Below are positions 4,550 to 36,245 of a DNA stretch of 64,000 bases, one piece after another. The notes beneath the pieces were generated by a model. The model ran no database searches and was not told the DNA's origin. It saw nothing but the letters and a program-made list of their open reading frames with translations. Source of the stretch: Dryococelus australis (lineage: Eukaryota; Arthropoda; Insecta; Phasmatodea; Phasmatidae); NCBI GenBank assembly GCA_029891345.1, contig CM056994.1, positions 143,366,457-143,430,456 of the forward strand. The letters are read 5' to 3'. The position numbers were made by a program, and so were the translations under genes. Numbering within the stretch: position 1 is the first letter of the stretch; each line of letters opens with the position of its first letter.

Positions 4550-5515
4550 AATTCTTAAATACATATATTAAGATAGTAAGGATGTTGTCTCTTTCTCTGA
4601 CTGATTTTGAGTGATACATTAACAAATCGTTATTTTGTGAAAATAGTATATAATCGTGTATTCTTATGTACGTTTGCGCGTCTTCGACGTTTATGACGGA
4701 AGTCAGATTGCTAGGAGTGGATTCATATAGTGATATTGCATGCTTTTATAATATGAAGATGATGACAGTGATTGAAGACTTACCAAATGTAACACCTCTA
4801 GCAATGGTTTCTGATGCGTCTCTATAATCAATAAATTAACAATATTGTAACTGTGGAAAATACTATCACTATAAGTTGTCACGCACGTTGACATGAATGT
4901 AGTCATTGTTTGTTCAGATCAGCATAGCAGTCGTTCCACTGTGAAAAGTATTATACTGTGTTTACTAGTAGTGATATCTTATATTGACATAAGAAGAAGT
5001 GTAAAGGTATTGTTTGTCGATCACTAATAGGCGAATGAAAATATTACATCAAGACATTTATGATTAGATTTTAGCACTAGACAATATGGAGAGAGTAACT
5101 GTGCATTTGTCATTAGTTATAAGACCTATAAGTGTGTTAACTGTAATGTTGTATATGCGAGTATGGAAACCTTGAGTGGACACTGCAAGAAATGTTCTAT
5201 GAATTAAGAGTAAAGCATAAATACTTTTGTTGAAATGAGAATGTGATAAGTGTATGTAAATAATACTACATATTTTGTATAATTGTGTGAAATAAATATA
5301 AAGTGTTTGAACGACTGTTGTTTTTATTCATTATATCCCTTCCAACTTTTAAGTGTTGCTATGAGCAAACACTTATAAGTGTTTAGAAAATGATTATAAA
5401 GACTTCAATATAAAAACTATTGGATAGTTGATTGCTTACATGAATATTCATTCAACCGATATGTATTATTTTTTTTGGAGACATTAGGTGAAACATTTTT
5501 CTTTATGTGTGGATG
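4550..5515. other. No recognised gene
   Basis: AT-rich, with a 67-codon minus-strand frame at 4703-4906 that shows no motif. Nothing else recognised. Confidence 0.5.
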
Positions 5516-5524
5516 GAGAAAGCC

Positions 5525-5652
5525 TACAAACCATTGGATTGGTAAATATTGTTAAAGATTAATTGAATGATTGGTAACGAATGGTAAGGATTGATGGAAA
5601 GATTGGTAAAGATTGGTAAGTATTGATATAATGATTGATAACGATTGTTGTG
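5525..5652. repeat. Short degenerate minisatellite (attggtaa-type)
   Basis: Loose direct repeats of about 10 bp built on gattggtaa/gattgataa (for example ggattggtaa, tgattggtaa, agattggtaa, agattggtaa, tgattgataa). Confidence 0.55.
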
Positions 5653-6157
5653 CGTGAGTGTGTGCGTGGCTAGGTGATATGGTGAGCTCTCTGTTTCTGT
5701 AAATGGACCTTTAACAAACGGGGTATGTGAAATTAAAAAATTAGTTTAAATATAACTCTGAAAAATGAATATGTATATCAAACAATTACAATATCATGTA
5801 AATTAAAAATTAAAATTTATGAGTGAATATTGTGTAGAGGATGAGATGTGTCAAACATTAGTATTTATTATAGAAAATGTTCGATACTAAATGGCATATC
5901 AAGTGTGTGTTTGTGTTTGTTTGTGTGTGTGTTTTAGAGCAGATTTCGGTAATTTTTGGACAATTTTGGATTATTTTTTATCATTTTGGGTCATTTAAGG
6001 TTAATTAGGATTGACTTGGTTCATTAGGAGCAAGTCTTGGGTGAAGCGGATTTGCGAATTGGAATATTTTAGGTTCTTTGTGTGCGAATTTGTGTTTTTC
6101 TGTGTGTGTGTGTGCTGGAATATATCTATGTATGGTTTGTTGTGATGCGATGTGATA

Positions 6158-6463
6158 AACGATTTTTGAGGAATAAGGAATGATTTATAAGAATAACGAA
6201 CGATTTTTAAGGAGTAAGTAATAATTATTAAGAATAAGAAACTGTTTTCGAGGAATAATTTATGATTTTTAAGAATACGGAACGAGTTTTGAGGACTAAT
6301 GAATGCTTTATGTGGAATAAGGAATGATTTTTGAAGAATAATGAATTAATTTTGAGGAATAAGTAACAAATTTTGAGGACCAAGGAATTATTTTTGACGA
6401 ATGAACGATTTTGAGGAATAAGAAGCAATTTTTGTGGAACAAGGAATGATTTTGGAGGATTGA
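6158..6463. repeat. 21-bp minisatellite, about 14-15 units
   Basis: Tandem units of about 21 bp built on gaataaggaatgatttttgag, drifting in single bases but keeping register through most of the block. Because the unit length is a multiple of three, stops are avoided on the minus strand, producing overlapping long open frames (6228-6527, 6308-6820, 6388-6681). I treat those as non-coding. Confidence 0.85.
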
Positions 6464-6660
6464 AGGATGAGGATTGATGATTGAGCAAAGAGGATAGAGG
6501 ACAAACGATAGATGATAGAGGATACATGATAGAGGATTGAGGACAGAGGGTAGAATGTAGAGGGTAGACGATAGAGGATTGAGGATATATAATAGAGGAA
6601 TTGAGGATTTATGATAGAGGATAGATGATAGACGATAGATGATAGATGATTGAGGACTGG
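6464..6660. repeat. Purine-rich gatagaggattgag minisatellite
   Basis: Follows the 21-bp array directly. It consists of imperfect 7- and 14-bp repeats (gatagag, gattgag, gatagatg), strongly purine-biased on the plus strand. The abrupt change of unit suggests a second, independent expansion. Confidence 0.8.
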
Positions 6661-7570
6661 TACATAGAGTAGTAATTTCATACATGGTTGTGTTGAATAT
6701 ATAATTTATAAAGTGTGTGAATCTTTTAAAAAGGTTTTCATAACAGTATGTTTTAATTACGTATATATGTTTTGCAGTTTGTGATTGTTTAGCCTTCCTA
6801 GATAAAGCACTCACTTGCATCTTTTCCGCAAGACCATTATTCTCCTTCCAGATATGACATTGGTCTGATGGAGGCCTGTGTGGGTGTGTATAAGTGGTTC
6901 TTTTTTATCGATGAGCTGTGATAAATTGGTGTAAAGAGATGGTGAATGATATATAGTGAGAAAGTTAATGGAGGAGGCATATTGTTTAGGTGTTTATTGT
7001 GTAGTGTGTTGCAAGCTGTCATGTATATTATTTATGCATAATATCAAACATATGTTAGTCGGATGTTAGTTTTTGTTATGGTAAGAGATATAATTAGCGT
7101 GAAATTTAACTTATTAGTTATTCATTATGTAAATACTAGTACTAAAAAGTGAGTTTCGCTTGCAATGAAGCAATGAGTATGTTCTCAAATCTATAGTTGT
7201 ATTCCTTTCTTGTTTGTTGTTTTTCATCGGTCGATGGGTATTTGGTTTCATCTCGTTACATCCTTACTACTTGCAATTTGATAATCATCACGCCAATACG
7301 TTGGTTTATTTACTTTATACGCGATTACAATAAATATATACTTAACCTGTATAGTTATTGAATCGCTATGTACGTACTACTTATATGTAAATATTCTCAC
7401 TAAATATGTATTTTTGATCTGCCTATATACCTACTTTACTCTTGATAATTTATATAAAGTGTGTGCTCACCTCTCTCGATGTAAGCCTTACCTATCATGA
7501 TCGATACAATTTTTAAAATTTCTCCAAATTTTCTGCTGCATTGATAACAATTAAACATGGCGTTTTTCTG
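6660..7570. other. No recognised gene
   Basis: AT-rich. Short open frames only (6837-7022 minus). Nothing recognised. Confidence 0.5.
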
Positions 7571-7699: not shown

Positions 7700-8368
7700 T
7701 GTTGTGTTATAAGTACTTAATGTTTGTGTTATTACAATGTTTTAAATTAACATGTCTTTAACTTAATGATAGAACAAAGTATTAATTTTAAAGAATTATT
7801 TAATATAGAATGTTTGTGATTAGTGGGTTTAAACAAATATCGCACATAGTAATTCATTTTCATATATTTAACTCGTTTAAATTGAAACAAATAATATGTT
7901 AGTATAACTGTACATAATTACGTTTAGGTTGAAGTATTGACTGAATCAGTATGTCTGCTTGAATTTTTATGCTTTTCGAAATAAATAAATATAGTTATAC
8001 TGAAACAGCCCTTAAGTTACTTGTAATATGAAAGAAGGATTATTTGTGTAAATACTTGTTGCAAATATAATATTCAAGTATCTTAGAAGGATTGAGTCAT
8101 GCGTTCGTAAAAACAGATATTAACACATTCTTTGATTAAGGAGTTTTTATGTAATGAACATATTTTGATTGTCATATGTAGTACGAGATAGCATGATTTG
8201 AGTACGATGAGTGCTTTATTTGGACCTTAATTTGATTTTAAATGATGCTATATTGTAAATTAGAACAAAGGAATATTGGTAAGGCTTTTTTCTTTTTGTG
8301 TGTCATTATACTTTAGATTAAATATGGGTGATAATGTGCAGTGGAAGACAGATGATGGAGATTTTTTT
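7700..8368. other. No recognised gene
   Basis: AT-rich. No motif-bearing open frame and no obvious repeat. Confidence 0.5.
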
Positions 8369-8607
8369 CATTTGTGTTGTATGATATGTTGATATAGGTG
8401 TTCAAGTATTTAGTTTTGCTTGTAAAGTTTGATGTTAGGGGTTTGCAATTGGGTGTTATGTTGTTGGTGTTATAGTTGAAGTTCTTTTGTAATATGATCG
8501 TGTCTGTTTTAGTTTCCTTTGTTCATTTGAGTTGTATGATATGTTGCTATAGATTTCAAGTATTTAGTTTTGCTTGTAATGTTTAATGGTTTGGGGTTTT
8601 GTAGTTG
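8369..8607. repeat. Local duplication (~82-bp unit, ~155-bp spacing)
   Basis: The segment at 8369-8450 (catttgtgttgtatgatatg ... tatttagttttgcttgta) is repeated at 8524-8607 with small changes, separated by about 75 bp of unrelated sequence. Confidence 0.8.
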
Positions 8608-9414: not shown

Positions 9415-10212
9415 ATCTTTAGTAATCAAAAAATAACATTACAATAATTACTATAAGCAGGAATAAAGAGCAAAAATAATCCAATTCCTAAATTAAATGT
9501 GATTAAATTCGGAAATAAATTAAAATTACATGTTCTGACAAAGACTCGATCCCAAACCAAATATTAACATTAGATTAAGTAAGACTAGCACCTACCCAGC
9601 TCACAATTAAAATTATGTGAAATCGGAAATAAAATAATATCACATGTCCTTCTGCAATACTTAAACACAAATACAAAATTAACATTACATTATGTAAGCC
9701 TAGCACATATCCAACTCACAAATAAAGTTTGGTTAAATCGGAAATTAAATAATATTATCTGTCCTGAGCAAGAATCTAACTCGAATCCAATATTAAAATT
9801 ACATTAATTACCCCTAGCATCTAACCATGTCCCAAATAAAATTTCGTTAAAATCGGAAATTAATTAATATTATATGTCCTGACCAAAAATCAAGCCCAAA
9901 TCGAAGATTAACATAACATTAACTAAGCCTAGCTCCTACCCAAGTCGAAAATAAAATTTGGTTAAAATCGGAAATGAAATATCACATGCCCTAACCGAGA
10001 ATGGAACCTAAATGCAATATTAACATTATATTAAGTAAGCTGAGCCCCTATCTAAGACACAAATAAAATTGTGTTTATCGGAAATGAAATAATATTAAGT
10101 AACCTAATTGAGAATCAAACCCAAATTCAATATCAATATTACGTTAACTATCCCCATCAGCTAGCAAGCTCACAAATAAAATTTTGTTAAAATCAAAAAT
10201 ATTACATGGGTC
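9415..10212. repeat. Satellite array, ~114-bp monomer, about 7 units
   Basis: Monomer landmarks repeat in order: acatgtcctga(c)caag, caaaccaaatattaacatta, aagcctagcacctaccc, cacaaataaaatttggttaa, atcggaaattaaataatatt. Successive acatgtcct-type starts fall near 9528, 9642, 9757, 9872, 9983, 10097 and 10203, a period of 106-116 bp. Divergence between units is moderate, so the array is old. One further monomer, inverted, is at about 24184-24333 inside the large Polinton-like element. Confidence 0.9.
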
Positions 10213-20615: not shown

Positions 20616-22680
20616 AGCGGGACGATGTCTTGGGCAATCTCACAACGATAACCTCATTTATAAAATCGTATTAAAATCAGAATCTGGCAGGCTCTCCGGC
20701 CTCGTGTGTGGCTATTTATTCCAGATTCCTCGTCCTAAACCTCCTAACATCAATATAAACAGCAGTAGGGCGTGGGCGTTCTGGCCCACCTTAGATGTGA
20801 ATTGATGGATTATGGGATTTATTTATTTATTAGCGGATTAATTGATTAATCTTATTAATTTGCGAATAAGATTAAAATTGTTGGAAATTTCATTTATTCG
20901 ATTAATGGCTTAATCCATTTTTGAAAATTTTTGGAAAAATTTAATTTTTTATTAATTTTTTTAATTTATTGGTAGTGTAATTATTGGATTGGTTTCTATA
21001 TTTGGAGAGTGGCAGCTTCGGTCTTCACCCTTGGAAGTCTGGCAGGACACCGAGATTGGTAGGTGTGTGGGTGGCAGTGTAATGTGTTGTGTAATACTGG
21101 CATAAGTTTAATTTTAGGAGAAGAGTGGCATAAAAATTAATTGGTTGTAGGAGCAGCTTTATATGTGTTGACCCATGTCCATCTGGTAGGCCACTGAGGT
21201 GGGAAGATCCTGGAAGAGGAGGGGGTGTCGGAAGCGACCACAAGTCTGGTGACTTGGGTAGTCGGTTTATGACTGAGGTGGGACGCTAGGTACGGGAGAA
21301 GGAGAGACCAGCACCGAGACACTCCCACCACAGGTGGTGTCTGAATGTATACTGAAGTTTAGATATGTGTAACGGTGGAAGTTGGATATACGTAATTAGA
21401 AATATATGATTTAAGATAGTAATTAGGCGAAATCAAATTATTATTAGCAAAATAAACAACTTCTATTGAAAGACAACATATTTTATTCAAAATCAATTGT
21501 ACACAAAGAGACATGAATACGATTTATGCTCAAATCCACAAAAGAACAACAGTTTACGAACCCAATTCGCACACACTATATGAATGAAGCAAAAGAAATG
21601 AATTATTGGTTAATCCAGCTAACTTACCCCATTTACACGAATCAGCTAAACACATGCATATTAAATCAGACTAATATAAACGAAAAATATTGATTAAAAC
21701 ACACTATATATAAACCCAAAAACGATGTATCCTTAACTATATCTACAACAAAATAAATACATATTAACCAAGGAAAAAGGCAGTGTACATCCCTACCCAA
21801 GCAAGGAACGACCTACTCTCAATCACACGCTAATTACGTTTAAGTATAGACTCAAGACACTGTTACAGATGTAACTGCCTTCACCCTCATATGCTCTCAG
21901 CTCTAGAAGGTAATGTTTGAACTACGTATAAAGTTATTTTACAATCGCTTATAATTTGTCACAAATACATGGAGTGATCTACCACTTTCAGTTAACATAA
22001 TAACATAAAATGTTTCAAATGAAATATTAACAGCGGACAATGAAATTAACTAAACATTTGACACCCAAAAAGTCAAATCACCAAATCGCACACAAAACTA
22101 CACGAAACAACATACCACAATTGCTACGCATTCCCTAGAAATAATTACTCACTGATGACACCATTACACGAAACACCTAACCACACATTCAAAATATAAA
22201 TTAATAATTAAATATTAAATATGCAAAAACGCACAGTACCACATTAGCGCTTTTCCTCAGAAAAATTAAACAACTATTAAAAACCGCTCTATTAAAATTC
22301 TAAATATCACACAAAAAATAAATTTAAGCATACCACAGCAATTCTACGATAGTGTGCCTTACGACGGTGGACCACGCCCATCACACGCAATTCGCCTCAT
22401 TCTCACTTCAAAAAATGTATCATATTTTCGGTATTAAACATTTCATAAATTTACGAAACAAATTTCCTATATGGAGGTTCGCAAGTTTGAATGGTGTCCG
22501 CACTTGTGTGTATTACGAACAAGAGCTCAGAGTGTCTTATATGTATGTCCGCTCTCTCCAGCGACTACTAACCAGGCCAACCAGCAGCCAGGGCAGCCAC
22601 GCAGGCACCGAACTATCCCATTAGAGCAGTCGAGAGTATTACCCCTCACTCTCTGTCTCATTCCCTTCCTCCCTTACCGG
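20616..22680. repeat. Left terminal inverted repeat of the large Polinton-like element
   Basis: Matches the reverse complement of 32990-34585 over its full length. Shared landmarks in order: acgatgtc, caacgataac, ctctccggcctc / ctctctggcctc, tgtggctatttattcc, gggcgttctggcccacct, gagaagagtggcataa, gtccatctggtaggc, aagcaaggaacgacctac, tataatttgtcacaaatac, aaaaagtcaaatca and tttcctatatggag. Relative to the right copy it holds two extra stretches, about 21310-21430 and 21455-21795. Short open frames inside it (20584-20805, 21025-21331, 22352-22683) have mirror images in the right copy and are not genes. Confidence 0.9.
21455..21795. other. Extra ~340 bp present only in the left inverted repeat
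   Basis: The right copy runs straight from agcaaaataagc to aagcaaggaacgacc, while the left copy has about 340 bp of A-rich sequence between agcaaaataaac and caagcaaggaacgacc. It is either an insertion on the left or a deletion on the right; I see no terminal structure that decides. Confidence 0.65.
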
Positions 22681-22684
22681 TGAC

Positions 22685-24180
22685 ACACCAACTGTGCGAG
22701 AGAATTTACTGTAGTGTGGCGAGCAAACAAAATAAGGCGATCCACACTGGAATGTGAATTTCTGTATCTTGGCTTCAACACTCATGAGCATTCATAGGAA
22801 AATGCTGCCTCCGAAACTCATATTAGCTACAAACCTGTTTTGCTTAATGAATCTACAATTCTACCACACAAAACTTTCGTATCATCAAGATTCTTAATAC
22901 TCTGTTTTAATTAATTACACAGTAAATAAACTCTTTTACACAATAATTGCGGATATGGAATAAATTACATTTCTATGTATTTTTAATATCCTGTGAAAAT
23001 TGTCTGCATTCACTATAACACGTTAATAATGTTTTATTTGCGACTTTAAATAACATATACTAACAGTTATTTATTAATTTCGCATTGTTTTCTGTGGGGC
23101 GCAATTAAGGCTAAAATTGTTTGCTCTGTTGCAATTCTCTGTAAACACAAATCTTTACTGCGTTAATAATTAACGATTTTGCTGTTATAGGTGATATTCA
23201 CGCAAACTGACTTCACAGCGAGACAGTGTTGCTTGCTGATATGGAATGCGGCCGGAAAAAATGATACGCCATTTGTTGCTAACACACTTGTTAGGCCAAG
23301 TGAATGGAAATTATGTGTTTAACACTTTTATGTTCACACACACATATTATCCTCACTGAAAACATATCAATAAACCATTTATAATTTTGTTTTTATATTG
23401 ATATATGTTTTTCAAGACATATGTATGTAAAGATGTTATACTCACTAATAGTTACATGTTCTTCACACAAACAATGTGTAAAGTCTTAAAGTAATACCAT
23501 TTTTTTTTGCGTAAACATTGACTCACTCATTTCTCTAAGATATTATGCTTCATAAAATTCTAGATATACACTCTATTTGGAGGTAAATGAAACAAACATT
23601 CAGATTGAAATTCATTTCAATACATCCCATTTTTCCAACAATCACAATATTTATTTACATATACAAATATCACATTATATTAAAAATATTTATTTACATT
23701 TACCAAAAATAATCAATCTTCTTTATATATCTTAATGAATCCCACATCTGGATAGCGATGTAGATGTAATTGGTGTCGAAGGAAGACCAACACGCTACTC
23801 TCAAATCTGTGTAATGTTTTTATTCACAGTGAATGCTACACAAAGCATTGGTTCGCTGGCTGTTAGACTTTGAGATTAGATTCTACTTGTAAGCCACTAG
23901 CTGTCAGTTGATTGGCTCACCCTTCGGAAGATTGCGAGAATTTGTCAGCCATTAACAAAGCAGCCTCCTAGAATAATTAAAAATATTTATTTGTCTATGG
24001 TTATGATAGGATAGGTAATGCAGCAACTTGCAATATGTAAAGTAAAATGTCTTTGCAACACCTTCCTCAGCCATGAAGGATTTTAGATATTTTCATGCTA
24101 GGTTCCGCTAATCAATATAGGCTGGGGTGATTCCAATGCTAATTCTAAAAGAGGAACCCTGCACCTCGAGAAAAATGTTT
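22685..24180. other. Left interior of the Polinton-like element; no gene recognised
   Basis: AT-rich and without a readable polymerase or other gene. A copy of the 7571-7697 dispersed repeat lies at 23928-24049. This is where more coding sequence would be expected in a complete element, so it was probably lost or overwritten. Confidence 0.55.
23928..24049. repeat. Dispersed repeat, copy 2
   Basis: Same orientation and landmarks as 7571-7697 (gcgagaatttg, cagcc/ca..., ctagaataattaaaa, aacttgca). Confidence 0.7.
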
Positions 24181-24183
24181 AAA

Positions 24184-24333
24184 CTCTACACAGGACATGT
24201 AATAGTATTTCGTTTTCGATTTAAACCAAATTTTATTTGTGAATTAGTAGGTACTAGACCTACTTAATGCAATAATGGTTTTGTGTTCGATTCTTGGCCA
24301 GGACATGTAATATTATTTTATTTCCAACCCTCA
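24184..24333 (-). repeat. Single inverted monomer of the 114-bp satellite
   Basis: Read on the minus strand it gives, in order, acatgtcctggccaagaatc, gcattaagtaggtctag, cacaaataaaatttggttta, aatcgaaaacgaaatac and a second acatgtcctg, that is, one full monomer of the 9415-10212 array plus the start of the next. Confidence 0.85.
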
Positions 24334-24420
24334 ATAAACATATCGACATTTTGGAGCAGATGGAGCAAGTGCAGTAGGTGGAGCAGATGGAGCTATGGAG
24401 CTGTAGAGCGATGGAGCATG

Positions 24421-24627
24421 TCAAGCAAGTGTATTAGGTGGAACATGCTTAGCAAAGTGCAGAGCTAACTGAGGAGGTAACTGTATAGCATGCTGTGCTG
24501 AGTGTGGAGCCAATTGTAGTTTCAGAGAACTAATGCTAAAAGTTTCAGAATGTCCTTTCAAAATATTGCTCCGAGAATACTTCCTATGGCAGTAATCACA
24601 CTGAAATTGCATTCTTAAAGTTTTCAT
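24421..24627 (-). CDS. Small ORF with one C2H2-like zinc-finger half
   Basis: 68 codons. Residues 8-25 read FQCDYCHRKYSRSNILKG followed by H: Cys-x2-Cys, then the hydrophobic and first His positions of a C2H2 finger, but the second His is missing. The rest is rich in Gln, Leu, Pro, Ala and His and continues, after the stop, into an Ala/Pro/Ser-rich frame encoded by the gagcagatggagc-type repeats at 24350-24420. It may be the worn N-terminus of a larger Polinton protein or part of an unrelated insertion. Function unknown; whether it is expressed is doubtful. Confidence 0.35.
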   Translation of the reverse strand: MKTLRMQFQCDYCHRKYSRSNILKGHSETFSISSLKLQLAPHSAQHAIQLPPQLALHFAKHVPPNTLA

Positions 24628-25099
24628 TCCACAGGTTTTTATTTCATGGCATCATAAATAATGCAAAGCTTTAAATTCTTTACCGCGGATGCAACAAAAC
24701 AGATGCGTCATTCCTTTAATACTGTTCCTAGTCTAGAGTGAAACTGAAAATTGTACACCTTTTATAACATTTTGTCATCACTGAGTGTTTACAAAAACAC
24801 TTCTTACTCTTTTTCTTTTCCATTCTCTCCTTAGCAATACAAATACTTGCAGTATTCTCATTTGTCTAATTGTTAACATTTTTCGTGTATTTGGGTGTAT
24901 GCAATATTATCCATTCTGGTAAAACAGGAAAAGATTCATAAAATGGGATATATACTTCTTCGATGGTCGCTAGCAGACTTCTATTCGGACACATATGGTA
25001 TACAGGAGATTTTTTACAGATCTGGACAAGAAGTTAAATCATTACATTTTTACCCTCTAATGGACATTGCATATTTTTGAAATGAAACAATCCATCGCA

Positions 25100-25951
25100 A
25101 GTCTCTCCAACACGATGTAATATTCTGATAGACCAACAAGGGTAATTTACACTTGAGGTTCCAGGGGTGACAGAGATGTAAATATCAGTTGGGTGGAAGA
25201 AAGATATGTTTACAGTAGGAATGTCACAAATATCCTAAGACTACTACTTTAGCAAACAACCTCTAAATGGTTTATTCCAGCTTGCAATCAATTTGCTAAT
25301 ATTCAATTTACACTTTGATTTCTGTATGCACAAGCATGTTACTTCATTGTAGTCTTGTTTCATTGTTAAAATGTACAGGTTAGCACAAACAAAGTTCTTT
25401 TATATACAAAATTTCACTCGCTACTCTTCAATGTTCCCTCATTGCAGATAGTGTCATATTAGTCATATAATATCCAGTGGGGACTCCAGAGGGCTATCAT
25501 CTTCCACTTCACACCAATTTATCATCAACGACCAATTTAGCATTAATTGTTTTCACCTGCAGAGAAAAAAACTGCTTTATATCCATGTTTTTCATAACTC
25601 TTTGAATGAAGAACATTTGTATTCTTTTCGGCTATCTGTTACTTTTCCATTCCACACACTCTCTAAAATACATTTTTGATCGAGTCCACATATGTATATT
25701 TCACAATTACTTAAGTAGTTCTTTCAAATATTTCCTATATTATCATACTCCATATATCCGCTCTCCCATGTTAAACCATGGTGATGTTTAGTAGCCCACT
25801 TTTTGGTCTTCCGGTATTTGGGACTTAGATATTTACAATCGAACAGTGGTTTCAATCTGAAGACTGTTGTGTTTTCTTCCATATCAGTTATAGCCATTTC
25901 TTTAATTGTGAACCTATCTGGGTATTGAAAACCTTCTACACTGCAGAACAT
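25100..25951 (-). pseudogene. Unrecognised Polinton-interior ORF, 3' part decayed
   Basis: The open 5' part (25724-25951, 75 codons) includes EENTTVFRLKPLFDCKYLSP and KWATKHHHGLTWESG, an aromatic-rich composition typical of a folded protein rather than chance sequence. Below 25724 the likely continuation is broken by stops. It follows the capsid-like gene on the same strand, separated by about 80 bp, and so probably belonged to the same leftward gene block. I do not recognise a domain and give no function. Confidence 0.4.
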
Positions 25952-26079
25952 ATCATCGCAACTGTGGTTCGTCTTTTACTAACTCAAGTCATTACCTTCT
26001 CCAGCTTATCTCTTACATTATAGCTGCCATTTTATCATGGATGATCAATGCGTAATCTTGCGTATTTACCAGAATGGGT

Positions 26080-27183
26080 TCATTTGAAACTATTTTAATT
26101 TCTGAGTCAATAACATGATTGCTAATGGTATGGTTTTGTTTACTTACACCAAATAAAAATAATGCTCATCTGTTATTTCATGATTCGGGTTCTAGGATCA
26201 GAGAACTGCTGTCATAATAAAATGTTTCCTGGAACTTTGAGTATGTATTGTAACAAATAAGGAATTCCCCATTTCCCAAGTTTGTATTGACTGTTTACTT
26301 ACAGTTTCAATTTTTCATGTCACAACTATCAAATAATGATATGCCTGTCTTAAAATAGTTTTTTTAGGTTTGTTTGAAAACAAATGACAATATATATCAG
26401 TTTTTCGGATAAAATACTTGATTTCAAAATTCACACGACTTTTATGATGTCTGTAGTGTTGGAAATGTCTCCAACCGTATGACCTTAATATTGCAATATC
26501 TAAATTTTTCCCTTTTTCGATATACTTCAAAATCTTTATACATTCACAGGTGCTAATTTAAATATGCTGAATCAGCCATTCAACTAAGTTTAATTCAAAT
26601 GTTACACCTTCCTCAATATTGGCCGTGTTGCATATAGCATTCAAATGTGTGTCTCCGAATAGAATAACTAATCCTTGTTAAGCACCTAATATAACATATT
26701 TATAGTCATCAGTAAATCCCAGTGCAATACTTAATGGTTAACAACTCCGTATTTTCTGAATGGGTTTATTTGTAGTGTATAATTGCTAGCATTGCTCCAC
26801 CTAGCTATAATCCCTATATAAATATTATCTACAGTCTGAGATAGATTGTTCTTTATCATGGAAGTAATTCCAACACCTTGTGTTTGGTTGAGTTCAACAC
26901 CATTAGGCAGATATGCAATTCTGTATATTAAATTAAGTGTTCTGTTTCTCACTATTCCTGTAGTTACAGAATTAGTTGCATCGGCTACCTTTATATATGT
27001 TCCTCTAAACCTTAAATTGTGTTTCAATGGTAGTGTATAAATATTGCTATTTTGTATAGAATATTTTATTTCTGAAGGTAACATGTACGAACCTGCTCGG
27101 AACTGTTCACATGCATGAATTTCCGTATTGGTGATTGCACCTTCATAACATATTGGTTCTTCAACATTAAGTACGTCTTCCAT
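26080..27183 (-). pseudogene. Capsid-like gene (candidate major capsid), decayed
   Basis: The N-terminal 150 codons are open (26731-27183). They start MEDVLNVEEPICYEGAI and contain YIKVADATNSVTTGIV and NGVELNQTQGVGITSMIK, a pattern I associate with the capsid-like ORF that recurs in insect Polinton-type elements. After the stop, a second block in another register (26315-26530) continues the gene: IEKGKNLDIAI. About 1.1 kb would give some 360 residues, shorter than usual for a double jelly-roll capsid protein, so ends may be missing. Capsid assignment rests on pattern memory and gene context; a structure-based search is needed. Broken by frameshifts and stops, so not functional. Confidence 0.5.
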
Positions 27184-27339
27184 TTATATTTACCATATAT
27201 CCAAATTCCTTAAAAACTATATGTTATGCTATGTTAACTTTGCTGGTATCATATTTGAAGTTAGCATTTTATGGTTGTGTTAACATCTTTCTATAGTTAG
27301 TTTCGTCGAAGTACATTCCTTGGAAACATAGTTTTTAAA

Positions 27340-28010
27340 AGAACTGCCTCTTTTAGGTCCATATTGAATATTATAAACAATACCCATTATGATTGTAATG
27401 TAAATGTAATCGGTGTGTTTAAATGTAATTAAATGGTTATTTCTTCATTTCTAACATTAATAATTTTATAGTCTTGATCGACAATTTTAACAACTATTTC
27501 ATCAGCACTAGTAAATATTACTGAAAGATAGAGCAAAGTATTTGGCTTTTCAAATATTTTGTATCCTGGAGCCTCTGCTCATGTGAATTCATGTATTGTA
27601 TCTGTTGGTTTTCCATTCAAAAATGAACTGTCTACAATTTTATCATTTACACAGAATACATTAACCAATATAATATAAATCTGTTTTGTTGATTTGTGTA
27701 ATTAATTTTCAGGATACGCTCTCCGTATCTAACCATATATATGCAATTTAATTGTTTTCTGTGAAGTTGATATTGACATTATTTTACATCACACTAGTTG
27801 ACGTATTTGGATATCCATGTAATAGGAGATGTGCATACTCAGGTAATGACACTTAAAAGAGAGTTTCTAATTCTTTTAATTGTTATGATTCCACTGGTAT
27901 TACTATTGTATCTGTTTTTCCATCAATGTTAAGCATAAATTGTTGGTTGTGCATATCAATCTTTGGTATGCTGTTGTAGGTGACGAATTCGATTATGTTT
28001 ATTTGCTACT
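27340..28010 (-). pseudogene. Second virion-type gene remnant (candidate minor capsid)
   Basis: Minus-strand fragments in several frames: MHNQQFMLNIDGKTDTIVIP (starting near 27958), LPEYAHLLLHGYPN, NVFCVNDKIVDSS, EAPGYKIFEKPNTLLYLSV and IVDQDYKIINVRNEEITI. The alternating hydrophobic pattern suggests a beta-rich protein. Its place between the protease remnant and the major-capsid-like gene on the same strand fits a Polinton minor capsid (penton) gene, but I cannot confirm that. Multiple stops and frameshifts. Confidence 0.35.
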
Positions 28011-28059
28011 ATCCATCTAACTCCAAAGCTGGGAAATATACCAAATGCAAATGTGAAGA

Positions 28060-28345
28060 TTTTCCACTTAATACCAACATTATTTAAATATTACTAATAT
28101 GTTTGTGACAACTTATCTATTTTATTTATAGTCAGAAACCATAAATATAAATTACCACAAATGATAGTATTTGGATATTATTCTGTTTTGTAATTGTACC
28201 TTAATTGCACATTTTTAAAATAGTTACATATTTCAATTTGGGACGTAAATCGCCGAATCTGTCGTAATGCAATGATTGATTTAAATTTTTAATTGAGAAA
28301 ACCCAATGTGTTCCTTCATTTTGTTTCGAATTTAAATAACCATCA
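28060..28345 (-). pseudogene. Adenain-like cysteine protease remnant
   Basis: The minus strand reads NEGTHWVFSIKN (His of the catalytic triad), then HYDRFGDLRP (acidic residue), and after a frameshift YPNTIICGNLYLWFL (Cys within ICG). The His-Asp-Cys order, the spacing of about 50 residues between them and the hydrophobic helix after the Cys match adenovirus-type maturation proteases (C5/ULP1-like fold) that Polintons carry to process virion proteins. Frameshifts and stops break it, and the N-terminus is not visible. Confidence 0.6.
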
Positions 28346-28560
28346 TACATTCGTGAAGGTTTGTTTTCTTTGGTAAATCGTCTCTCATATACACACCTCG
28401 GAAATAAGGAATGTCCAATTTCTTTACAAATGCCTTACTGTCATTGCGAGTGCATGTTTAGAAAAACCATACGAAACAATGTATTTTTCTATATTTGGAG
28501 TTGTTTCATCCCTGTACATCTTTATATGGTTTAAAATTCATTCATTTGCGATTTGATTAA

Positions 28561-28690
28561 TTAGATTTAGCAAGAGCTTAAATTCCTCCCATTAAAGCAC
28601 CAAGGGCTGATAATGTTGGAAATATTAATGGTAACATTCCCTGTTTCTTTGTTTGTCATTTGGTCTTGCATTTTACACCCATACCTTTTT
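28561..28690 (-). pseudogene. Short hydrophobic virion-type peptide remnant
   Basis: The minus strand reads a basic stretch (VKCKTK, stop, QTKKQ) followed by GMLPLIFPTLSALGALMGGI, then a stop and ALAKS. A basic segment followed by a hydrophobic, Gly/Ala-rich segment resembles the small core/membrane-active peptides of adenovirus-like particles. It lies directly upstream of the protease remnant in the leftward block. Short and broken; treat as suggestive. Confidence 0.35.
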
Positions 28691-28699
28691 TCACTTTAG

Positions 28700-29335
28700 C
28701 TCGCATTACTTTGTGTATGACACAAGCACCGGGCTCTTTACCTATTAATGTGTATGGATTCTTACTCATATTTGCAGCTTTATTGGCTAGAATCGTATCT
28801 CCTATATTCATTTATTTCAAATTGTTTAAGCATAAACTATCTCATGATCTTTACAAATGTCATTCGAAAAAAAAATGGATTCCTTGATTGTTCTCTGCCA
28901 GACGTTTTCACGTTTAGAACTGGGCATACAATAATTGTATTTTGGTAATTGAAATTCAAATGGCGATTTATTGATCAATGTATTCTATACTCCTCATCCT
29001 TTTTTTATGTGTTTAGTACCAGCCATTATTCTCAGCTGAACACAAACTTATATATAGACCTGCATTTATAGTATTACAACAGTACATTACTTTACACTGT
29101 ATGTATTTGTGTATAAACGAAGGTTGTGGTATAAAGTGTACATCTTCCTGTAATTGTAAAATGCAACCAAACAGAGATTTGGAATTCTTTTACCTCCAAA
29201 TGTATATTATTAAATAAACTGTCCTTGTTCATGTAGAAAGATGTGTGTTTTATGTCGATGTTGGAACATCCAAATGGAATAAATACATATATGTGTTTTC
29301 TAAAACTATGCAACTTCATAAATATCATTGCTTAG
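28700..29335. other. Divergent intergenic region of the Polinton-like element
   Basis: Lies between the leftward block and the rightward block. It contains a 78-codon minus-strand frame (29092-29328) with no recognised motif. If the two blocks were ever transcribed, their promoters should be here or at the block ends; I see no convincing core promoter. Confidence 0.4.
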
Positions 29336-29339
29336 CAAC

Positions 29340-29790
29340 AAGCAACTATTTTGTCGTTAATTGAAGAAATGCGATATATCTCTGTTACTAGTAAATACAA
29401 TATGGTGCCTCCTAATGAAGCAATACTGAATATATATATATATATATGTTTGGTGCGAACTGCAGGGTGAAATACAATGTTATTATAGTTTTGATAGACA
29501 TTCAAAAGTAGATTGTTTTTATGGCCGAAATTTATTCATGTATTACAAAATATAATTATCATGATAATGCGAATTGGTTTCTTGTGTTTAAAATGGACAA
29601 CATCAATCTACAACATATGTACAATATCCATGATTTAGGTCACATGACATTTAAAAAGTTTAAAAATGTATGCTTTTACTTTTGGAGAAATAAGTATGGT
29701 TTTCTGGTAACAATGCCGGCATTTACCTTATATTAGGGGAGATATCGATGTGGGTTTGACAGTTTTGTACTTCCTGGTGAAGAATAGTGA
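29340..29790 (+). pseudogene. Packaging ATPase (FtsK/HerA type) C-terminal remnant
   Basis: A 71-codon open frame (29521-29736) reads SCITKYNYHDNANWFLVFK, NLQHMYNIHD, KKFKNVCFYF and NKYGFLV. After its stop the frame continues GRYRCGFD. Upstream, in another frame, SFDRHSKVDCFY matches the segment just before it. The same succession (GRHAKVDCVY, then YSCIHK...HDNANMLVLF, then RHVYDDH, then GRYRCGFD) occurs in the ATPase fragment of the smaller element at 53.1-54.0 kb, so the two support each other. Such ATPases drive DNA into the capsid of Polinton-type and related viruses. The Walker A region is not readable here. Confidence 0.6.
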
Positions 29791-30033
29791 GTATTTTAAA
29801 GTTTGGACACGTCAATAAAACACAACCATTACAAAACCTGTTTAACCAAAAATGACATTAGGAATTGCGATATTAACATATATGTTATATATTGTGGGTA
29901 TGGCAGTAAAAGATAGTGAGTGGTAATTAAAGTATATGTTGAAGACTTAAACAATATTAGCTAATGTATCTAAATCACTATAGACATATATATACAAGAG
30001 AAATAAGTAAACTTAATTGAAAGTATTACAAAA

Positions 30034-30339
30034 GTGTCTACAAATGTAAGTAACATTTCTAAAATATTGAAAAATATGATGACTGCACTGCAGGATATAG
30101 AAACTTTAACACATGAACATTTAGAATGTTTAAAAATAGGAATTAATAAAATGTTATCTGCTACTATTGCAAAACAACTTGAAACAAGAATGGAAAATAT
30201 GTTGGAATATATAACTGTTGAATTGATTAATAGAACATCTTGTTTAGTTATGCAAACAGATTTTAAAAAGCAAAATTATTATTTAAAATCTCAAATAATT
30301 ATCTTTATTAATGACTTGAGAGCTAAAACTATAAGCTAA
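30034..30339 (+). CDS. ORF with coiled-coil character, unrecognised
   Basis: 101 codons, rich in Leu, Ile, Lys, Glu and Asn with heptad-like spacing (for example NISKILKNMMTALQDIETL). After the stop the same frame carries on as LHAVLSKVDQIEKKQTGLQ, so the original protein was longer. It lies between the ATPase and integrase remnants on the same strand. No domain recognised; a structural or tail-fibre-like role is only a guess. Confidence 0.4.
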   Translation: MSTNVSNISKILKNMMTALQDIETLTHEHLECLKIGINKMLSATIAKQLETRMENMLEYITVELINRTSCLVMQTDFKKQNYYLKSQIIIFINDLRAKTIS

Positions 30340-30589
30340 TTACATGCAGTTTTAAGTAAAGTCGATCAGATTGAAAAGAAACAAACTGGTCTCCAAGTGC
30401 ACCATATAGAAAACCAACACCTAAATTTATATATAAATACTGGAATGTAAATGTAACTTACTCAAAAAAAAGTCTGACACACTTCAGAATTATATGGTGT
30501 TATTTCTGCTGTGAAGGAAAAATATTTACAAGCTAAACGAGCACAAATGGAAACAGATGTTTTAAATAAAGAAATTTTTAACCTCTTAT

Positions 30590-31135
30590 GAGAGGAATTG
30601 ATACATTACAATCTGCATTAAATACTTCTCATAAAACACCAATGGAAATTAAATTGGAAGAACCTTTAAAGAAGAAAAAACCAATTCTTTCTTTTTTTAA
30701 CACAACATTATTTAGCTTTAAAACATTATTCACCTATGCATGATACAACAATTGGTGTATATCGACCTTGTATCATATGGTTCCTGCAATATTTAGTAAT
30801 TACGTGTTTGCCTGATAATAAACATAAAATAGGTGACTATGTTATTGATGTGAGTGAAGTACTGTTTAATTATTATTTACAAACTTTCCAAGTGGATACT
30901 CTGACACCGATTCAGAGTAATATATGAAACTAATCCGTCCTACGAATGCAAACATTTGTTAGGGAGATGAAAATTGCCCGAAATTACATTTAATACGACA
31001 CATTGCTGGAAGTGGAATATATAGATACCAAGTTGGCGATCATTTATTCGAGAGAGTCTGGGAATAATACACATACAAAACAAAATTGTCTCTTTTATTA
31101 AAGAGCTGACTGAAGAATATTGTATTACTAATGAA
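30590..31135 (+). pseudogene. Unrecognised Polinton-interior gene remnant
   Basis: Fragments in several frames between the coiled-coil ORF and the integrase: MRGIDTLQSALNTSH with EEPLKKKKPILSFF, then a 63-codon frame at 30736-30927, then SRESGNNTHTKQN. The basic KKKK patch and its place upstream of the integrase suggest a virion or DNA-binding protein, but no family is recognised. Confidence 0.3.
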
Positions 31136-32045
31136 GTTCAGTAAGTTTGCTCAAGTTCTCCATGCCCCTAAAAGAAAAAGGTTTTTCCAAAATGTGTGTT
31201 ATTAATCATGATTTAAATTATATTTTTCAAGCCCATTTGTGTAAAATGAAAATGCTTTCGTAATATAATAATGATACAGGTATATTTGAACCAATATAGA
31301 CGTTTATTCAAAATGTTATTGGGGTAAACCTGCGATGAATAAGACTGGAAAACAAGTTACTGCTGCAATGAAAACCATTGCAGAAGAAATATAGCAACAT
31401 TTGCTCAAACTGACAAACTGACCAAATTTTTAAATAGATATTTCAGTTACTAATAATGGCTGAACATGGTATTAATCACTACACTATATATCCTGAAATT
31501 AAAGCATCTGTTGTGGAGACATTCAACCAATCTATTAAACAGCTAATATACAAACATTTTAATTCGAAGGGGACTTACAAATGGGTGGACATTGCCAGAA
31601 ATACTTACATTTTATAATTCAAGATATCAACGAACTATCAAAATGGCACCCGAAAGTATTATGGACAGTATATTACTGAAAACCCTATATATTATTTTCC
31701 TAAAGTAGTCGACGAGTGAAGGCAAAAGTTTAAAGTTGGCAACTAAGTATGTGCCTCTTAACTGAAAGGTTTTTTTGAGAAGATATGTACTATTAATTAG
31801 TCTTACAAACTATTTAAAATTATTTCAACTAGACAGTTGTTCCCTAGAATATTACCTCGAAACCAATGATGGATACCTTAAAAAAAGTGTTTTTTATCTA
31901 CACAAATTACAGTAAGTTACTTCTCCGAATGAATATTTAGTTGGCAAATTCATAAAAATGAGAATCACACATCCTTAGTCCATTAAAAAGGGTTCTCAAA
32001 AGTGCACGATTTGTGGGTAAATAATTAAGACCTTAAAATATTGTA
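31136..32045 (+). pseudogene. Retrovirus-type integrase with C-terminal chromodomain, decayed
   Basis: Plus-strand fragments in order: FQAHLCKMKMLS (first-Asp region, altered), NKTGKQVTAAMKTIAEE, NHYTIYPEIKASVVETFN (third catalytic Glu, 31516-31518), YKWVDIARN, RYQRTIKMAPESIM, YFPKVVDE, then KGFSKVHDLW near 31990, a chromodomain-type ending with the aromatic residues in place. Integrases of this rve family insert Polintons and create 6-bp target duplications, and a chromodomain is usual in that lineage. Stops and frameshifts are frequent, so it is not functional. It is the last gene before the repeat-rich right interior and the right inverted repeat. Confidence 0.7.
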
Positions 32046-32244
32046 AGATAATGTTTGTAAAATTATGACAATAAAATATTGAAATATAATTGAGTGGTTT
32101 TAATTCTAAAAAAAACTTACTAATAATGATAGGGTTTGAATGTTTAATTATTGTGCAATTACTTTATTACACTTATTGTACAATCATTCTGCTTGTCTGT
32201 ATTTGTTTTATTGTACATCGTTGGATTATTATTTTGTGATGTAA

Positions 32245-32535
32245 CTCCCATTTGGATGGTAATTAATTACATTTGATTGGTAATTCAATTCGTATTTTGT
32301 GTTTTTCAATTGTGATGCAATTAGTTGCGCAAAATTTGTAATTCAATTGGTAATTGTGATAAATTTCTTTAAATGGTAATTCACATTAATGTGCTAATTC
32401 GTTACATTTCGTTAGTAATTCAATTTGTATTTTGTGGTTCTTAATTGTGATGTAATTGATTGCATTAATTTTGTAATTCAATTTGTATTTGTGATAGATT
32501 CGTATTGGTGATTCGTGTTTTTAATCGGCAAATAA
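32245..32535. repeat. Two-unit tandem repeat, ~132 bp
   Basis: The segment starting taattaattacatttgattgg (about 32262) is repeated from taattcgttacatttcgtta (about 32395). Both contain taattcaatt(t/c)gtattttgtg and taattgtgat(g)... segments. Located between integrase and right inverted repeat. Confidence 0.7.
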
Positions 32536-32659
32536 AATTGTTTGTTTTTAATTCTTTAATATTAGAGTGATGTCTAATTTCTCGAAATATAATTGTTTGT
32601 TTTTTTTTTTTTTTTACATTTTATGTAACGGGTCATATTTATATGCTTGTTTGGATACA

Positions 32660-32865
32660 TTTCCTGGAATTGGGATGTAATTTCATGGAATTTGAGAGAT
32701 AATTAAATTTTAATGTTATCGAGGCTGTATTTCGAATGTTATATATGTGATACTGTACATTCCTGCAATTGGGATACATTTCCATAGAATTTTGTGTATT
32801 ACATGTAATGTAGAACTTAATTTCTTGGAATTGAAATATATTTTCATGGAATATTACACCTTAAA
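32660..32865. repeat. Three degenerate (c)tggaattgggat repeats
   Basis: Similar segments of about 30 bp begin near 32663, 32760 and 32822 (tggaattgggatgtaatttc, tgcaattgggatacatttcc, tggaattgaaatatattttc). A 24-base-range T tract (about 32599-32615) lies just upstream. Confidence 0.6.
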
Positions 32866-32989
32866 GGTATCTGGGACGAAATTACATTTTTATTATCAGT
32901 TGAGATATATTACATTTGAGATTTCCAACAAACTGGCCATTGGGCGCCGCCCTGGAACCACCTTGTCGCAGGATTGGTCTATGTTTGTC

Positions 32990-34585
32990 TTGGGTAAGGG
33001 GGAGAGGAAGTGAGATTCAGGGCAGTTCAATGCTCTCGAACGGTTGTGATGGGTTGGGGGTGGTCTTGCAGCCAGCGGTGAACGGCACTCTCGTTCAGTT
33101 GTTGTTAGACACCTTTTCCGGGTTGGTCGATGGAGAGAGCGAGCGGACATGTCTCATTCGTAATACAAACATGTGCGGACAACATTCATACTTCCGTGTC
33201 TCCATATAGGAAATTCGGTTCGTACATTTATTAAATGTTTAATATCGGAATTGTGTGACATTTTGCTGAAGTAAGAAGTACGAGAGGGGGTGTAACTTGT
33301 GACGGGCATGGTCGGCTGGCCTACATCGTAGGATAGCTGCTGTATAATTGAATGTACTTGGCGTGTCCTATTTGGAATTTTAATACCATTGTTTTTTAAG
33401 ACACATTTAATTTTTCTTGGAAAAGTGCCAAGATCATACAGTGCGGCTTTACATTTTTTATATTTAATTAATTATTTTTATTTTGAATGTGTGATTAGGT
33501 GATTTGTGTAACTGCGTCATTAGTGAGCTAATTTTTTCTAGGGAATACACATCAATTGGGATAAGTTGTTTCATATCATTTTGTGTGCAATTTGATGATT
33601 TGACTTTTTCGGTGTTAAATATTTAATTAAATTCTCTTTTCGTGGTTAATATTTTATTTAAAAAGTTTCGTGTAATTGTGTTAACTGAAAGTTGTGGATC
33701 ATTCCGGGTATTTGTGACAAATTATATGCGATGTTAAAATAATTTTGTACGTATTTCAAACATTATGTTGTAGAACAGAGAGCCGATGATGGTGAAGGGA
33801 ATTGTGTCCGTAACAGTGTTTCGAATCTATGTTAATGTAATTTGCGTGTGAGTGATGGTAGGTCGTTCCTTGCTTGCTTATTTTGCTAATCATTTGATGT
33901 GTATGGTTGCTGCTCTCTCCCTCGCCCTTACCCAGATTCCTACCTCAGTGCTGCATTGACTTCTTAAGTCACCGGACATGTGGTCTCTCGCAGCACCCTC
34001 TACTCCTCCTCCATCTTCCCACATCAGTCGCCTACCAGATGGACATAGGTCAAAACATATGATGCTGCTTCTACAACCAAATAATTCTTATGCCACTCTT
34101 CTCCAAAAATAAAACTTACTCCACTATTACACAACACATATATGATACTGCCTACACACTTACCCAGCTCAGTGCCTGCCAGATGTCCAAGGGTAAAGAG
34201 CGATGATGCCGCTCTCCAAAAATAAAAAGCAATCAAACAGATACACATATCACTAGAAAAAATTTCCAACATTTTTGAAAATGACTTAAGCCCTAATCAT
34301 TCACCCAATACATTAATCTCCAACCATTTTAATCCGATTTGCTAATAAATCGCATTAGCCAATTGATCCGCTAATACATCAATTAATCTTATTTTCCATC
34401 AATTAATCCCAGGTGGGCCAGAACGCCCCCACACCTAATGCTGTTTATAGTGATGTTACGGGGTTTAAGACTAGGAATCCGGAATAAATAGCCACACAGG
34501 AGGCCAGAGAGCTTGCCAAATTCTGCTTTTATTACGATTTTAGGATTAGGGTTATCGTTGCGAGATTGTACAGGACATCGTCGCT
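32990..34585. repeat. Right terminal inverted repeat of the large Polinton-like element
   Basis: Reverse complement matches 20616-22680 minus the extra left-hand stretches. The inner edge is around cttacccaagac on its complement; beyond it the two sides stop resembling each other. At about 1.6 kb it is at the long end for Polintons, whose inverted repeats are usually a few hundred bases to about 1 kb. Divergence between the two copies is substantial, so the insertion is old. Confidence 0.9.
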
Positions 34586-34589
34586 CACA

Positions 34590-36245
34590 TAGTGAATTAT
34601 AACCGGTGCGTTTCCCTACCTATAAACGTATTCAGTGAAAAAGAAAGTTTCATTTTGCATCTGCTTTCGTTTAGTAATGAGTCATTTCACACTGATATGT
34701 TGAAACAGTTATCAGGAGTGCAAAAGTAAAATATAATTCTCTGCGAGTAATTTTTGGTATCTACAAATGCAATGCCCTGTGAAAAAAATATTGGCATGAA
34801 TAAATGTATCTTTGAAAGCTACGGTGGACGCTTTAATGCGTATTTTTGTTGTTCATGATTTGTGGACATAATTCGGGACATTTAGCATAGTTTGAAAAAT
34901 ACATTCGTATAATTACTTTATTGCTGAAATTTTAAGACTGAAATATTGATACACTACTGCAATTAGTTTTGCGATTCTGCAATAGACATTGTTGCGTCTA
35001 TCTCCTTTATACCTTTATTTGTAGACATTTTGTTTGGCCAGTTTGTTGCTAACAGACCAACAAAGTAACGAAGGAACACGCAGTAAGAAACACATCCACT
35101 GGAGTGAGTATACCACAGTTCGTCTACAAACTTGGGAGGATGTTAGGAGTTCCCAGATACGCCCTCGGAACCTATGTATATGTGAGGACTTTCATTTCAC
35201 AGGATGTGTATTGATTGATTCTCGAGTTCCCTTGTTTAATGGCATCGTGTACCTCCCAGGGAAATAGCATCTAGTCCTTAATGGTTTCCATACTGGAGGA
35301 TCAGATAAGCCGAGCATAACATCTAATTTCACGGCGCCGTCTATATTCCCCTGCTCCATGGTCTCCCTCGAGATGACGTCGTCAACCCGGCTAGAGGGAG
35401 AGGGACCTGTAGGTGGAATAATGCGGGTGGATAGGGACATCAGTGGGATGACAGGCCAGGAGAGGATGAGTTGCTGTTGGTCTTGTGGAAGGGGGAGGGG
35501 TGAAGTGCCTTATCATCCTCCATGACTCAACCTCCTCCGCCCTCGACAAACATCTTTTTTCTTTGCCCTCTTCCGCGAAGCTTTTCCGATCCCTGCTGCT
35601 TCGGTAAGAGAATGGGGTTGTTTGATAATTTTCTGCCTGTCGCCCGTAAGAAAAATAGCTCGCCACTCCAGCGCGGATCAAAAACTCGTTAAGATCTGTC
35701 TTCATTTCTGTGGATACGTGCCGCGTCAGCTAGATTGCTCTCTCAAGCCTTGCCCACAGCGCGCATTCCTAGATAGCTGGGGGACTTACGGCACCCATTT
35801 CGAGCGTCTTGTATGATTATTGAAACAAACAACTTGGCTTCAGTCCTCGCCTTTCAGTCTCCAATAAGTATCCCCTTTTTTCTTCGCGGAAACAGTGGCA
35901 CACATTTCGTGATTACCTTCATTGCATTCAGGCTGCATTAGGCCATACGAAAATTCCTACGCAACTACTGTTATATGTTCCGTTCTTTAATAAAAACCCT
36001 TTCTGTTCTCATTTAAAAAAAGTCTTAGTGGAAAAACGCTTAATATTATTTTCCCCTGCATCCGTGTCACATTGCAAAATATACTATTCGAGGACGAACA
36101 AGATATGAGTACCCGTTCATTACCCTTAAAGTGATATAATTTGAATATCTAAAAGTTAAATGAACATATCCAAATACCGTATGTAAACTAAACGGATAAC
36201 ATACCTCCAATAGCAGATTATCTGCAAAAAGAAAGGGTTGGAAGC
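34590..36245. other. No recognised gene; GC-rich block 35270-35800
   Basis: AT-rich flank, then about 500 bp of clearly higher GC (35270-35800) with open frames on both strands (35192-35440 and 35391-35705 minus, 35622-35816 plus). The plus frame ends in SWGTYGTHFERLV, faintly like the end of some DDE transposases, but I find no catalytic block upstream and do not call it. Confidence 0.4.

Follow-up and report, generated by a model that had tools for sequence, protein, structure and literature searches.

The locus studied here raises the question of whether a transposon-like element with no evident polymerase gene stands for a lineage of its own. It lies at about 20.6-34.6 kb of a 64,000-nucleotide stretch of the Dryococelus australis genome (C2:143366457-143430456, hereafter the window). 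An earlier note had described a Polinton/Maverick-like element of ~14 kb at 20616-34585 and, as this appeared to lack the polymerase, had suggested that it may be a distinct lineage. The Polinton/Maverick-like part of that interpretation stands: the element has long terminal inverted repeats (TIRs), there are capsid, integrase and PolB homologues, and a sister copy carries AGTAGT ends and a 6-bp target site duplication (TSD). The step from a missing polymerase to a distinct lineage does not. With a probability of about 0.92 we read the element as an old, dead and internally deleted self-synthesising transposon of the Polinton/Maverick kind (polintovirus-like) that spread in this genome long ago. 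Rather than a new lineage, it represents an already known kind of element in defunct form.

The repeats at both ends form the first line of evidence. A repeat search of 18-38 kb found seven inverted pairs, six of which (I1-I6) are collinear TIR pieces, 20621-22524 pairing with 33152-34582 at 76-88% complementarity. Gapped BLAST gives two blocks: 20621-21322/34582-33899 (76.3% identity, E 3e-148, Kimura two-parameter distance (K2P) 0.22) and 21798-22519/33876-33157 (77.1% identity, E 8e-155, K2P 0.24). The best inverted score of the element ends is 535 bits, well above background: 60 random segment pairs from the window outside the element score no higher than 51.8, with the median at 23.8. These far lower control scores, and the same arrangement of TIRs and interior genes elsewhere in the genome, speak against an inverted repeat made by chance or by the assembly around unrelated genes, an explanation to which we give practically no credence. 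The long inverted repeats proposed earlier are thus real, but they do not match over their whole length: 21323-21797 (~475 bp) is peculiar to the left arm, and at that place the right arm consists of 33877-33898 alone. Because part of this stretch (21476-21567) is also present in the arms of two other copies, the right arm has probably lost the ~475 bp. The left TIR (20616-22524, plus strand) is delimited by the inverted BLAST blocks, I1-I6 and end alignment; its outer end is too decayed to be fixed by comparison with other copies, and the true end may lie slightly further left. The right TIR (33152-34618, minus strand) is delimited by repeat search, BLAST and comparison with other copies, and its outer end apparently extends to about 34618 in the end alignment with these copies.

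Sister copies were sought in the 3.415-Gb assembly (646 contigs). The search with the left TIR scored 40 of its 985 first-look candidates and so gave a minimum of 84 matches. Five inverted pairs were chosen, at C17:54.14 Mb (~19 kb), C17:186.99 Mb (~18 kb), C17:261.48 Mb (~11 kb), C6:144.28 Mb (~14 kb) and C17:20.90 Mb (~13 kb). All five (5/5) have two arms that can be aligned along some 1.4-2.35 kb (a few arms are truncated by the ends of the extracted stretches), and arm-to-arm divergence is K2P 0.19-0.23 except for one block at C17:54. This copy (C17 ~54139318-54158763, loci L031/L032) combines an outer block at K2P 0.11 with an inner block at 0.23, and gene conversion between its arms may underlie the unequal divergence. 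The interior DNA of the window copy is collinear with the other copies and 67-81% identical in the longer pieces. Less decayed copies, for which the earlier note had proposed a search, were indeed found; they are less broken and have Pfam matches to capsid, PLA2 and rve. The C17:261.48 Mb copy (L035) is without the capsid-integrase half. Degenerate short coding-like tandem repeats (PMPTPT or GVGIG-like) lie inside, or are inserted in, two sister copies (L031 5492-6159 and L034 6209-6664). Loci L053 and L054 were left out of the analysis.

Polinton-type ends can be made out in two sister copies. At C17:54.14 Mb AGTAGT is present at both ends and a perfect CAAACA duplication on both sides, which agrees with the (AG)3 or (AGT)2 ends and 6-bp TSD of Polintons/Mavericks; passages of PMC8097293 report (AGT)2 ends with 6-bp duplications for vertebrate Mavericks. 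The C17:20.90 Mb copy also has AGTAGT ends, with 4/6 flank bases matching, and for the C17:261.48 Mb copy no TSD or AGTAGT ends could be made out. TIRs of 10^2-10^3 bp, another trait of these elements, are likewise present. The earlier note had called the inverted repeats longer than usual. Against intact vertebrate Mavericks this is correct, as the TIRs reach about 2.35 kb here, compared to 46-1,447 bp (mean 402) in passages of PMC8097293. As a peculiarity of this element it does not hold: long TIRs are common to all six copies compared and are therefore not special to the window copy. For polinton-like viruses, a passage of PMC12220804 gives TIRs of hundreds to thousands of bp.

Between the TIRs, the minus strand carries in order the PolB remnants, an unassigned piece, the capsid gene, a candidate penton, a candidate protease and PLA2, and the plus strand a candidate ATPase, an unassigned piece and the integrase. 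The profile searches proposed earlier gave double jelly-roll (DJR) capsid, PLA2 and rve in sister pieces and a weak capsid match in one window piece, the six-frame translations of the window element giving nothing. Over window and sister pieces together, DJR capsid and PLA2 score above their Pfam cut-offs, Endonuclease VII at its cut-off and rve below it. As for the genes that the earlier note had listed, the capsid is supported by Pfam, weakly in the window's own piece, and the integrase by way of the sister copies, whereas the ATPase and the protease found no confirmation in profiles.

The DJR major capsid is a Polinton/Maverick trait. PF21738 matches L032 with 82.2 bits (E 5.2e-23) and L037 with 58.7 bits (E 7.5e-16; cut-off 27), and the window's own 150-aa piece with 18.8 bits (E 0.001). 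The broken gene (26315-27183, minus strand) consists of the open pieces 26731-27183, which gives this match, and 26315-26557, which has no capsid match alone and is matched by tblastn to the L032 and L037 stretches that score PF21738. A protein database search with the window capsid piece gave 0/55 candidates at E <= 1e-3. The integrase gene (31052-31708, plus strand) is broken by stops and frameshifts and was located by tblastn with the L032 integrase core (E 1e-15) and by C-terminal pieces; the L032 core itself matches rve (PF00665) at E 1.6e-4 and 22.3 bits, below the curated cut-off of 32.6. An rve integrase of the Polinton/Maverick type is thereby present in the L032 piece and as a tblastn remnant in the window. 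A broken gene with a PLA2-like domain (28659-28984, minus strand) matches L032, L034, L037 and L039 by tblastn. The L032 piece scores the parvovirus-type PF08398 at E 1.3e-9, and the window pieces of this region, taken alone, gave no PLA2 match in Pfam.

Three further genes are candidates, their labels resting on resemblance, motifs and position rather than on profiles. Next to the capsid, 27432-27578 (minus strand) is 62-70% identical in amino acids to L034 and L032, has no Pfam match and is by position a candidate minor capsid (penton) protein. The candidate cysteine protease piece (28204-28434, minus strand) looks adenain-like by eye, and similar pieces are present in 4/5 other copies. The candidate packaging-ATPase remnant (29252-29574, plus strand) consists of three pieces that match an L037 open reading frame (ORF) by tblastn (E 8e-13); the L037/L039 ORF has what we take to be P-loop and DD motifs. 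Two conserved pieces carry no label. One (30007-30336, plus strand), between the ATPase and integrase remnants, matches L032, L039, L033 and L037 by tblastn and has no convincing Pfam match. The other, u1 (25727-25975, minus strand), is 59-63% identical in amino acids to larger pieces in three other copies (tblastn), again with no Pfam match. PHROGs on ten pieces gave only endonuclease VII of note, and a PDB sequence search with two pieces gave nothing for one and an unrelated match at E 0.2 for the other.

The question of the polymerase turns on what surrounds its place in the window. Here a 118-bp deletion scar (23921-24038) stands where L035 4845-8206 and L044 1494-4858, ~3.36 kb with the PolB core, have no counterpart. 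On one side lies what remains of the PolB gene region at its 3' end (23736-23920, minus strand), matched by blastn to L035, L039, L044 and L052 and by tblastn with the L035 piece 8230-8388; on the other lies the 5' part (24039-24749, minus strand), with a C2H2-like finger piece at 24424-24651 (weak in Pfam, E 0.018, below cut-off). In blastn 24749-24039 corresponds to L035 4182-4845 and 23920-23486 to L035 8206-8717, and the gene-end pieces match at the protein level as well (tblastn). Eleven further PolB loci (L042-L052), the best of a PolB DNA search after L035 itself, give the same edges: in 10/11 the match with the window stops exactly at 24039, and in the two with window-type flanks on both sides of the scar (L044, L052) it begins again at 23920.

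The identity of this gene rests on its matches to other insect proteins, since the Pfam PolB matches are weak. A 127-aa PolB piece of L035 matches the PolB-like LOC134531497 of Bacillus rossius redtenbacheri (P0001, PF03175) at E 5e-39 and 59% identity and a Plutella protein (P0002) at E 1e-9, the two being 2/59 candidates at E <= 0.01. P0001 aligns along both L035 (E 4.6e-130) and L039 (E 6.9e-103), a comparison that concerns PolB only. Elsewhere the gene survives in parts: L039 keeps the C-terminal part and L038 the N-terminal part. Endonuclease VII (PF02945), in L035, lies inside the PolB gene region. PolB is therefore present in the family (L035, L039) and, by analogy with Polintons/Mavericks, would be protein-primed; the window copy has its gene-end remnants only.

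Given the remnants of both PolB ends and the PolB-bearing copies with other gaps, the missing polymerase is best attributed to a deletion in the window copy rather than to its lineage. A distinct Polinton lineage without PolB, replicating with a host or borrowed polymerase, would account for the window having no PolB core (P0001 and P0002 match nothing there at E <= 1e-3). We consider it highly improbable: such a lineage should have no PolB gene at all, but both gene ends are still there, and PolB is present in copies that share the window's flanks (L035 and L044, and in parts L039, L038 and L052). A non-autonomous subfamily, in which PolB was lost prior to transposition and full copies then mobilised the shortened form in trans, is unlikely but deserves more weight. 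Internally deleted DNA transposons are often mobilised in this way, and the window copy has TIRs and an integrase gene; however, the 23920/24039 junction occurs in none of the other copies compared, whose gaps lie elsewhere. With the deletion placed in the window copy, the missing polymerase of one decayed element is a local event and no new biology, and lineages named from single broken copies would mislead.

Several observations weigh against reading the element as a deleted Polinton from an ancient amplification. Pfam scans of six-frame translations of the window element, in which stops were read as X, gave nothing at E <= 0.01 or 0.05, and the window copy alone has one weak match of note, the capsid piece. 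The candidate protease piece matches no Pfam protease family, its sole hit being weak and unrelated (Laminin IV B, E 0.035), and for the candidate ATPase (L037 ORF and pieces) there was no Pfam, PHROG or PDB match and no homologue in the protein database. On L035 pieces the Pfam PolB models are weak (DNA_pol_B_2 E 0.065, DNA_pol_B E 0.17), and an unrelated model outscores DNA_pol_B on the second piece. By eye, neither a 6-bp duplication nor AGTAGT ends could be made out for the window copy, and among the four copies with both ends inspected one TSD is perfect, one has 4/6 bases and two have none. Mismatches between copies are not exactly even over codon positions (chi-square p 0.006), and in the PolB stretch third positions are in excess (5467/5121/7066 over all pairs). 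Finally, 9/11 of the further PolB loci (L042, L043, L045-L051) match the window only at about 24039-24190.

These nine loci match L035 only from about 4565-4795 to 8120-8125, and they match one another outside PolB too (L047, for instance, with L045 over nearly its whole length). As nine of eleven have different sequence beside PolB, at least two subtypes of PolB-bearing elements appear to exist. On the same ground we abandoned the view that every scored PolB locus belongs to the window type. Several second-subtype loci have an acidic repeat-like ORF before PolB. Downstream of L047, at 0.9-1.8 kb into L055, sequence matches TIR arms (67% over 694 bp of L034, 78% over 180 bp of L036). Judging from these alignments, the second subtype would be a relative with kindred TIRs (one case seen) and the same PolB core, with different sequence between. 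A stretch (L056) upstream of a second-subtype locus has a retrotransposon endonuclease (PF14529, E 6e-16) and is uninformative on the genes of the subtype. PolB sequences of the window type are 79.1% identical to one another (6 pairs), those of the other type also 79.1% (36), and pairs across the two types 78.8% (36). The PolB tree does not group the types; a single clade of the four window-type copies is not rejected (approximately unbiased test, p 0.255), and the tree is therefore no proof of exchange. Tentatively, and at somewhat less than even odds, we propose that the window copy belongs to a PLA2-bearing Polinton family whose TIRs are very long and which reached high copy number in a burst of two or more subtypes; these share the PolB core and, in the single case available, TIR stretches, but have unrelated sequence beside PolB. 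If true, two element types exchanged the PolB core at about the time of this burst.

The number and decay of the PolB loci bear on the amplification itself. The PolB DNA query gave 4918 first-look candidates, of which 40 were scored, all at distinct places (L035 included), and P0001 gave 31,814, of which 75 were scored; such candidate numbers are loose and are not copy counts. In-frame stops occur in 79/81 P0001 matches, and the two stop-free matches (201 and 49 residues) belong to loci that have stops in another part. A PolB tree of 13 copies is star-like, with tips of 0.098-0.158, inner branches of at most 0.031 and 1/10 inner branches well supported, which suggests an ancient burst followed by decay. 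Mismatches between copies are spread over all codon positions (760/664/777 in 2851 codons). Their unevenness and the PolB third-position excess indicate that the copies do not come from one single sequence, and we take the pattern to mean that a few closely related, functional elements gave rise to a burst and that the copies then decayed largely neutrally. Among 13 pieces given a codon-position test, in which pairs share queries and are not independent, u1 shows an excess, the penton piece and one integrase piece smaller deviations, and the other ten p > 0.05. In u1 (with L032, L034 and L037) the differences fall mostly at third positions (29/39/70 in 230 codons, p 5e-5); with 13 tests this may have arisen by chance, or it may reflect stronger selection in the time preceding the burst. 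At an insect substitution rate near 3e-9 per site and year, a rough estimate would place the age at tens of millions of years. The family is in this sense a fossil record of a burst of virus-like transposons.

In its active time the family most likely transposed as Polintons usually do. By analogy with the known family, PolB would make a linear DNA copy from the terminal repeats (by protein priming), and the rve integrase would insert it with a 6-bp target duplication; the capsid, perhaps with the ATPase and the protease, would be able to package the linear copy. After insertion the window copy would have decayed, losing ~475 bp of one TIR arm and ~3.36 kb of PolB. We infer the order of these events, as we do their date.

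The findings fit a known kind of element. With Polintons/Mavericks (polintoviruses) the family shares long TIRs, the rve integrase, PolB (in related copies), the DJR capsid, and the AGTAGT ends with 6-bp TSD of a sister copy; its five two-TIR sister copies span about 11-19 kb. It differs in the length of its TIRs, and the window copy in its broken genes and missing PolB core. A PLA2-like gene (PF08398) within a Polinton-type element is shared with insect Polintons that have a parvovirus-type PLA2, as far as description goes: the legend in PMC3671162 has PLA2 in the figure key beside Polinton fragments of Tribolium castaneum and Acyrthosiphon pisum. In a passage of PMC8363768 on insect adintoviruses, homologues of PolB, integrase, capsid, protease and FtsK are described for a 14.5-kb contig, one of three (13-15 kb); the likeness is one of described gene content, the present family being known here from sequence. 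According to a passage of PMC5691397, the abundance of Mavericks in stick insects has already been published.

Outside the element, ten window ORFs gave 0 families in Pfam, so that no host gene could be named there, and ARAGORN (bacterial code) found no tRNA gene in the window. GC skew is strong at 5001-7000 (0.40-0.57), where degenerate, GA-rich arrays with tandem periods of 14-59 bp lie at 5537-6669, and a further tandem array at 9490-10201 has six copies of about 115-bp units with 72% matches.

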